64,000 bases of DNA from Sphaerolaimus hirsutus (lineage: Eukaryota > Nematoda > Chromadorea > Monhysterida > Sphaerolaimidae). Under the pieces are notes generated by a model. The model made no database searches, was not told where the DNA came from, and was given only the letters and a program-made list of their open reading frames with translations. The position numbers were made by a program, and so were the translations under genes. How positions within the stretch are numbered: the first letter of the stretch is position 1; the number at the start of each line of letters is the position of its first letter. The stretch is taken from positions 11,467,206-11,531,205 of the forward strand of contig OZ038459.1 in the NCBI GenBank assembly GCA_964036195.1, read 5' to 3'. This document shows positions 50,566-53,500 of this stretch, piece after piece.

Positions 50566-53500
50566 ATGGGCGTGTGCACATCGAGCGCGGAGGCGAACAA
50601 CGGCTCGGACGCCACGCGGAGGAAGGTCGCCCTGCAGCAAGACGGTGGGCCGCTTTTGAACACGCTTGAATGCGAGCTCAGAGTTGTGAAACGTACTGAA
50701 CTTTTTCGAAAGTGAACGTAAACGTTAAGTGTTTATTTTTTACTCACAGGTGAGCACAGAAAACGTAAAGTATTTATTTTTTAGATTTACTCATGAGTAA
50801 ATGTGATTGAATTACTTTTGTGCCCGGAAACCGCAAAAGTGGGTATTTTTGAGAAATTTTGCCCCAATTTTTGCCTAGAATAACCTATTTTCAACTTTTT
50901 CGCCATCAAATTCACTTGTTAATGTGTTTTTGTATATTTTGATGCTATTTTAGATATTTTGTCTATATTTTTAGCTTTTCACTCCATCTAATTCCTTAAG
51001 CCCGTTCGAAATACGTTTTCTGTACTCGCCTACTTTCAAAAAGTACGCGAGTAAGTGAGTACCGGTATTCTTTCCGGGGGGAAACGTAAACGTATTTACG
51101 CAGTACTCGAGTATCCGTATTTATCGAGTAAACGTAAATACGTTTTAACAACTATGTGCGAGCTTAACATAGCTTCGAGTAACTGCAACCGCCGCGCTCA
51201 GAACGCATGCTGAACAGCTGCTACACGGAGGTGTCCTCGTCGAGCGCCGCCTACGAGCAGGGCAGGCACGGCTTCCTCTACGACGCCGAGCAGGGGCCCT
51301 GGTGCCAGGATCAGACACTTTAACGTGCCCTGTAAAATGTAAAATGTCACGCAAAGTGTCAAAAGTCATGTAAAATGCTCTGCAAAATGGCAACCGAGTC
51401 GCAATTTTGCAGGCCATTTTACATGACTTCTGACACTTTACATGACATTTGACATTTTACAGGGCACTTTAAGTGTCTGGGACTGCCCCCAGGCAGACGG
51501 CCGAAGGCACGAATGAACGCAAAAAGAGCGCCGGTCTAGTGAACGAGTCGTGCAACAACGACGGTTCCTTGGCTAGTTTGAGATCAAAGTTGGGCCAGTG
51601 GAGTTTCAGAAAGCGATCGCAGACCGCCGGCAGGGTGCACGATTTCGTCGATGTGCAACATTTCGAGCGCGTATGCACCATCGGTTTGTTTGTAATTTTT
51701 TTGTGAGAATTCGGTTTTGGACAGCGGCGCTGCGCGCAGTCGCTGGAGCGAAACGAGTGCATTCGAGTGTAGTTTCAGTGATTGACCGTATTTGCCGAAT
51801 TCTCGGGGGGTTACTTTTTTAGAGTGGAAATTTTGAGGGAGTAACTTTTGTTTGTAACGTACGCAGATGTAAAATAGAAAAATGCAACAATAGCTGCCAA
51901 GTACCACCTTAAAGATTTTCCAGGAAAAAAGTACTCGATTTTACATTTTCCTGACAAAAAAGTATTTTACTCACCTGTACTCATGAGTACGGGTAAAGAA
52001 AGTATTTTACATTTACTGTACTCTAGGGTGAGTAAAAGAGTATTTTTTACATATTTTATACATATCCTTTGAATAGGTTCAGCAATTTTAACAACAGCGC
52101 CACTCAGGCACGGGCACATTCGGCAGAGTTCTCTTGGTGCGGCAGAAGCGTTTCGGCAGGCGCCACAAACACAGAAACGCAGACGAATCTCCGAGGCCGT
52201 CCTCGCCGACAGCGGAAGATGACCCGTCGACGATTTTTGCGCTGAAAATACTCAGCATCAGGCATGTGATCAAGAAAAAGCAGGTGCAGCATGTGCACAA
52301 TGAAAAGAGACTGCTGATAAAATTGTCGCACCCGTTTATTGTACAGCTGTGAGTTTGATGACATTGTGACTACATGTTATTTACAGTATTTCCTCGAAAT
52401 AAACCCCCCTCAAAATGGCCACTATGAATTTATTACCCCCCCCCCCTCGAAATACCCCCCCCCCCCAATTGAGTGTAAAGAGAACGTTAGTTAAAAACCT
52501 GCGGTTTGTTATATGGCAATGCAAAACACACGTCAAAAACAATGAATTGTTACGTTAGAACAGTTTTTATGCCATCTACATACTTATATATAGCGGTTAT
52601 TGTTGCACTTTTCTACGTCTGCGTAAGTTACAGACGACAATTTAGTACTGGAAGTAAAAAAAAAATTCTGGCGAAATAATACCCCCCTCGTTCAACCCCC
52701 CCTCAAAATTCTCACTCTGAAACAATCACCCCCGGGGGGTATTTCGAGGAAATACGGTATATACTTCAGAGGATTATTTTTTTGGCTACAAGATATTTTG
52801 AATACCCGTTTTCAGTCACCGGGCATGGCTGGATGACCGATGCATTTTCATGCTATTCGAATATCTGCCAGGCGGGGAACTGTTCTCGTATCTCAGAGCC
52901 GCTGGTTTGCCATAAAATTTGAATTTTCCAACAATATTGCCCATGGCGATGTGAAAATTCTCTTTGCAGGTCGTTTCGCACTGGGAACTTCGCGTTTCTA
53001 CTCTGCCGAAGTCACTTTGGCACTACAACATTTACACAATTTGAACATCGTGTATAGAGACGTGAAACCGGAAAACATTCTCCTCGACGCTCAGGGCCAT
53101 GCGAAATTGATTGATTTCGGCTTTGCCAAGGACTTGAGCAGATCAACCAGGTAGTGACATAACATACTTTTCGAGTTTACACCAAATGTCTTGTCTATAA
53201 GTACCGTATTTGCTTGAAAAATTCCCCCCACGAATAATTCCCCCTGTCTGTTTGAAATTATAATTTCCCCCTTAAGGCATATTGATCAAGCTGTTTTGGA
53301 TTTTTTGAACAAAAATGGCATGTTATTTTGAGAATAAAGCATATTTCGTGAAACGACTTGATAAAAATATTCTAGGAAAATTTTGACGAAATAATAACTC
53401 CCCCTTGAAAAATTCCCCCCAAAAACGTCTGACGAAATAATAGTTCCCATTCCCATTCAGAACGTACACGTTGTGCGGCACGCCAGAGTATTTAGCTCCA

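Follow-up and report, generated by a model that had tools for sequence, protein, structure and literature searches.

The origin of new introns is an old open question, and introners, mobile elements whose insertion creates an intron, are one documented answer to it. In the excerpted text of a survey across eukaryotes (PMC9860276), in which families range from 5 to more than 2,000 copies, animal introners are rare: of all animals and land plants, just two groups carry them, both of them animals. A protist counterpart, the introner elements of Amoebophrya, has inverted repeats of 8-20 nt and very diverse splice sites, according to the excerpt of that report (PMC7789003). The present analysis concerns 64,000 nt of the nematode Sphaerolaimus hirsutus (assembly GCA_964036195.1, contig OZ038459.1, positions 11,467,206 to 11,531,205, hereafter the window), in which the second intron of a protein kinase gene is made up of a palindromic miniature inverted-repeat transposable element (MITE). 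Very probably this element is an introner: a non-autonomous DNA element that inserts at CWG (W being A or T) with a 3-bp duplication, and makes a new spliceosomal intron.

Like the introners of the survey, as its excerpt describes them (PMC9860276), the element resembles a non-autonomous DNA transposon with terminal inverted repeats and a short target site duplication, the whole intron being the element; one splice site would likewise be carried within and the other recruited from the duplication. It differs from them in that the whole element is palindromic, in its animal host, and in an acceptor that would be AG or TG by accident of the target strand; as for copy number, the figure given below is extrapolated and not counted. 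With the Amoebophrya elements, as excerpted (PMC7789003), it shares hairpin-forming inverted repeats, border direct repeats of 3-5 nt and largely non-canonical ends, and is unlike them in forming one family with a fixed GT donor and a full-length palindrome. The 3-bp CWG duplication is that of the NuwaI transposons of the PHIS superfamily, which are mainly animal; the portion of that report at hand (PMC4482050) makes no mention of splicing. Among the titles and abstract openings listed from the literature on introners, tunicates, animal intron gain and non-canonical introns, none describes this element.

The kinase gene and its second intron are laid out in the window as follows.

50566..50644, plus strand: kinase exon 1, with the start codon ATG (MGVCTSS...), from reading-frame assembly
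51202..51301, plus strand: kinase exon 2, from reading-frame assembly
51299..51301, plus strand: left copy of the CWG target duplication, CTG, the final bases of exon 2
51302..51489, plus strand: probable introner, a 188-bp near-perfect palindromic MITE, GTGCCAGGATC...GTCTGGGACTGCCCC, its left end the GT donor (family L002-L090)
51490..51492, plus strand: right copy of the CWG target duplication, CAG, acting as the predicted 3' splice site
51302..51492, plus strand: kinase intron 2, GT...AG, 191 nt, the element plus one target duplication
51493..51683, plus strand: kinase exon 3, in which the PKA match starts at residue 111, from reading-frame assembly and domain match
52108..52348, plus strand: kinase exon 4, with the glycine-rich loop and a GT donor at 52349, from reading-frame assembly and domain match

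All four exons share one frame, and the N-terminus leads into a PKA-like kinase domain. An earlier, sequence-only reading had held that the frame is kept across the element and that the 191-bp intron is almost exactly one inverted-repeat element, and both statements hold, the intron being a 188-bp palindrome plus one 3-bp duplication. Its bounds for the element (51298..51494) do enclose the palindrome, but the element proper spans 51302-51489 and the edge bases are the target duplication (CTG/CAG). Its claim that the MITE supplies both splice sites needs a similar correction: the donor and the C-tract do lie in the element, but the acceptor AG comes from the duplication. The predicted splice sites read CTG/GTGCCA at 51302 and CCCCCAG/G at 51492. 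Inverted-repeat arms of 75 nt (51320-51394/51398-51472) are 88% complementary across a 3-nt spacer, and the 26-nt terminal arms (51298-51323/51468-51493) are 77% complementary; as RNA, the 191-nt intron folds to -104.8 kcal/mol, whereas 200 dinucleotide-shuffled versions average -43.0 (z -17.3). An Rfam scan of the window returned zero families at gathering score, and seven weak sub-gathering matches on the hairpin region were disregarded. The mismatch between the left CTG and the right CAG is probably a T-to-A improvement of the acceptor; the kinase copy, with CTG left and CAG right, is of the matured class of introner.

The search for further copies covered the 348-Mb assembly (762 contigs). 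The left end of the element matches 20,515 places in the whole genome at up to 3 mismatches, against 0 for the control. The reverse complement of the right end is two mismatches away from the left end, so a single copy may be counted twice, and the family may number about 10,000 copies. There are 407 asymmetric copies in which both ends match exactly and 148-178 bases separate them. The family consensus is 189 bp long, GTGCCAGTCCC...GGGACTGCCCC, and its ends mirror each other except that GTGCC on the left faces a mirrored GGGGC on the right. The GT donor is thus the asymmetric spot, and a donor on one side only would let the element work in the sense orientation alone. In 24 copies (48 strand-symmetric matches) both ends are of the GGGGC type, perhaps an older, non-intron form of the element. 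There is also a subfamily with CCCAAGCCCTGTAAAGTGTAAAG past the left end (L065, L071, L045 and similar rows), which has the same CWG and GTGCC ends.

The target duplication is 3 bp long and reads CWG, mostly within C-CWG-G. This was determined from L001-L038, which comprise 36 non-duplicate loci; six with unclear ends were omitted, leaving 30. Left and right flanks agree at the three CWG positions in 29/30, 23/30 and 29/30 loci, at the next base in 22/30 (the element's own G on the left), at the preceding base in 18/30, and at all other tested offsets in 4-10 of 30. A 5-bp CCWGG duplication was abandoned on this flank agreement in favor of a 3-bp CWG with an outer C/G preference.

Taking out the element together with one CWG rejoins the open reading frames. 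Of 83 non-duplicate loci (90 loci, with 7 duplicates dropped), a codon model scores 41 as coding across the join, 35 of them sense and 6 antisense, and the ratio is 34:3, 24:2 and 17:0 at strand-score margins of at least 3, 8 and 15; the two antisense loci that survive margin 8, L046 and L052, are copies of one locus. A set of 30 loci (28 once duplicates are removed) picked solely by matching the left end contained 11 loci that are coding in the sense direction and 1 in the antisense; at the same share throughout, the genome would contain thousands of introners, an extrapolated figure. Some loci were missed by the codon model, such as L054, which fell below threshold yet has a P450 match. Of 32 distinct sense loci tested, 8 have a Pfam domain over the cut-off that spans the join, in most cases without net gaps:

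Innexin at L003, 63 residues on 63 profile columns
Cation efflux at L041, 83 residues on 83 columns
P450 at L054, 71 residues on 72 columns
TIL at L058, 55 residues on 55 columns
AMP-binding at L062, 95 residues on 114 columns
Cation_ATPase_C at L032, 69 residues on 70 columns
Mon2_C at L077, 88 residues on 88 columns
Ribo_biogen_C at L089, 46 residues on 46 columns

At L003 the alignment with the innexin-6 structure in PDB is also gapless across the join, which falls at a common tryptophan. Because the codon of that tryptophan is TGG, the site can be argued to have read CTG-G before insertion; the innexin copy, like the kinase copy, is of the matured class. Innexins are animal proteins, and this match indicates an animal host. 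A PDB search with the cation-efflux piece found no match. Below the cut-off, and uncounted, 7tm_1 at L008 (E 0.033), XK-related at L076 and DUF745 at L075 cross the join, as does calpain III at L037, which falls just short (20.1 against 21 bits); ASC at L090, CUT_C at L007, kelch at L067 and Cast at L075 lie beside the join or only touch it. Seven sequences of doubtful loci (6 antisense and 1 sense, from L033) contained no Pfam domain. In many unrelated genes, then, the ends of one repeat family appear to coincide with the ends of the inferred introns, and insertion itself appears to make the intron: the CWG duplication sits at the join, the innexin is gapless, and no older intron sequence is left.

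Base changes at the two ends differ in the manner expected of splice sites. The second donor base is altered in 9 copies, whereas its mirror counterpart in the other end is altered in 41 (p 6e-6). On the acceptor side, copies with CAG on the left have A, T and C/G at the right W in 212, 22 and 7 cases, and copies with CTG on the left have T, A and C/G in 115, 58 and 13, so that the right end is altered in 29/241 of the former versus 71/186 of the latter (Fisher p 4e-10). Among CTG-left copies, changes of the right T to A outnumber those to C and G combined, and copies with T left and A right exceed the reverse class by 58:22 (p 7e-5). Selection for an AG acceptor would be expected to leave just this right-end bias toward A, which links the family to the spliceosome.

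We suppose that intron formation would run as follows. The left end of the element would give the GT donor, the right end the C-tract, and the duplicated CWG the acceptor. Insertion at CAG would produce a GT...AG intron immediately; insertion at CTG would produce a GT...TG intron, which seems to be tolerated although poor and would later mutate to CAG. The hairpin would pair both splice sites together and may aid excision. The genome would then hold many introns of single origin with two starting acceptors, CAG and CTG, set by the target strand. Single origin and two starting states would make the birth and optimization of splice sites countable genome-wide, and the need for AG testable in nature.

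A right-end T is present in 8 of 17 sense coding copies of L001-L038, loci not selected on duplication. Among 15 right-T coding loci, two of which (L054 and L006) score under the codon threshold or ambiguously, 8 have a frame-keeping AG near the join (L004 at -18 and -30; L006 at -9; L037 at -9 and +15; L041 at +6; L054 at +15; L012 at +18; L014 and L042 at +27). The other 7, L002, L008, L011, L024, L040 and the recent paralogs L056 and L058, have none within 30 nt, which suggests use of the TG. Each of the 15 has an AG 19 nt upstream of the join (18 in L004); that it acts as a first-step AG is speculation. In the duplicated cation-efflux pair L041/L057, both CAG..CTG, 12 of 188 introner bases have changed, versus 3 of 300 in the flank, and the 94 codons compared carry 4 synonymous changes and 1 replacement. 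The gene thus remained constrained at the protein level with a CTG-ending introner present, the frame-keeping AG at +6 being the alternative. The contrast is weaker in the TIL paralogs (for example L056 against L058, where 60 codons carry 4 synonymous and 2 replacement changes and the intron 9 in 192 bases). It is a little short of an even call, in our judgment, that the spliceosome of this animal removes hundreds of introns with TG as their sole 3' site, and that a CTG insertion is born as a GT-TG intron adequate to survive, to be turned into GT-AG by one later T-to-A change; true use of TG acceptors is nevertheless likely enough to matter. If it is real, the family is a natural series of intron birth and maturation. 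In human genes, as the excerpted report has it (PMC2374985), a TG 3' splice site occurs only as an alternative beside AG, unlike the present copies, several of which would have TG as their sole site. Fritillaria is likewise an animal with mass non-canonical 3' ends; in the excerpt of that report (PMC13326754) AG/AC and AG/AT ends prevail and U2AF is duplicated, and here the donor is GT and the acceptor TG or AG.

What the genome shows directly is the set of copies with their ends and CWG duplications, the frames that rejoin, the bias toward the sense strand, and the base constraint on donor and acceptor; several explanations compete for these observations. MITEs are common within introns, and the element might have invaded pre-existing introns and fill them now because they were small or have shrunk. 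That is very improbable, since between the rejoined coding exons lie just the element and one 3-bp target duplication, a conserved domain crosses the join at 8 loci, and old splice sites would persist outside the element. Whole-intron copies at unrelated positions, the 3-bp duplications, the frame-exact rejoined domains and the sense bias all favor an introner over a MITE in an old intron, as the sequence-only reading had proposed. An unlikely but weightier competitor, to which the family's preference for right-end A over T lends support, is that many coding copies, chiefly the TG-ending ones, are recent, unspliced, disruptive insertions. The sense-strand bias of coding copies argues against it, and coding copies with a right-end T stand no closer to the consensus than A/A copies do, their divergence being about equal (T/T 0.067, n=6; A/T 0.071, n=4; A/A 0.075, n=3; small numbers in each case). 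The conserved exons beside a diverged introner in L041/L057 point the same way, but L041 has its frame-keeping AG at +6. Finally, the very stable hairpin linking both ends and the direct repeats at the borders recall removal guided by the hairpin without the spliceosome, as proposed for euglenid nonconventional introns; the CAG/CTG pair near the ends is also euglenid-like, at other offsets in the excerpted account (PMC4770533). We give this very little credence: a strand-symmetric hairpin leaves unexplained the sense bias, the constraint on the donor T relative to its mirror position and the drive of TG toward AG, and in place of borders that lack conservation and are set by pairing only, the GT here is constrained and the AG favored.

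Several points tell against the introner interpretation. Every splice junction is inferred from coding sequence, the loci were chosen non-randomly (best matches, exact ends, first contigs listed), and 24 of the 32 tested loci have no over-cut-off domain spanning the join; the kinase lacks one because its join sits in an unconserved N-terminus. The codon-model strand ratio is not independent, because training used sense-strand pieces of seven test loci and then the passing loci; at least 10 sense loci score close on both strands, and a few near-duplicates (L056/L058, L046/L052) are still counted. Variant subfamilies could inflate the 41 mirror-position changes. Part of the T/A excess could stem from left-side A-to-T change, limited because the CAG..CTG class has only 22 rows (about 16 without duplicated loci), and the duplicate check covered 30 of the 58 CTG..CAG rows and found one pair. 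The donor GTGCCA is weak, and an in-frame GT 18 nt into the element (position 19) could serve instead; its conservation across 45 loci is compatible with either use.

The family shows the CWG duplication that marks NuwaI (PHIS) MITEs, and from it we infer that a NuwaI-type transposase probably mobilizes the element. The genome contains 163 matches to PF13359 (DDE_Tnp_4), which we take to cover PHIS-type transposases. An autonomous relative would be marked by the end sequences GGGGCAGTCCC or GTGCCAGTCCC beside CWG, and autonomous NuwaI elements are defined, in the excerpt, by a DDE transposase together with a Myb/SANT protein (PMC4482050). Most of the PF13359 matches listed (for example C15:11284193-11284825 and C7:3244940-3245572) run to about 633 nt for 147 profile positions, with 4 in-frame TGA and an excess of about 192 nt, the size of the element plus its duplication. 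This excess is perhaps an intron of the transposase gene; the introner consensus, read in frame, has 3, 3 or 1 stops and not the 4 TGA, which does not bear out the idea that the excess is the present introner.

A blastn search of the window located other copies of the element.

59455..59610, plus strand (host strand uncertain): second copy, shortened, with CAG on both sides, opening with GA and not GT
9135..9192, strand not given: element fragment, from blastn

There is also one weak blastn match at 2468-2503. The sequence-only reading had described a homologous copy 8 kb away as an intron of an unrelated gene; the copy exists at 59455-59610, but its intron status is not established, given its GA start and ambiguous host strand (codon scores 54 versus 48). 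Either it is an intron of the GA-AG type or the copy has decayed; it sits in a repeat-rich stretch whose adjacent repeat units are without the element. On the plus strand at 60180-61560, candidate tetraspanin-like exons were judged by eye, with an LGCCGF motif that we take as a tetraspanin mark. A C-rich motif, cctcgaaataaacccccctcaaaat, and variants of it were seen by eye in introns and spacers at about 52390, 52680, 53220, 53400 and 60390.
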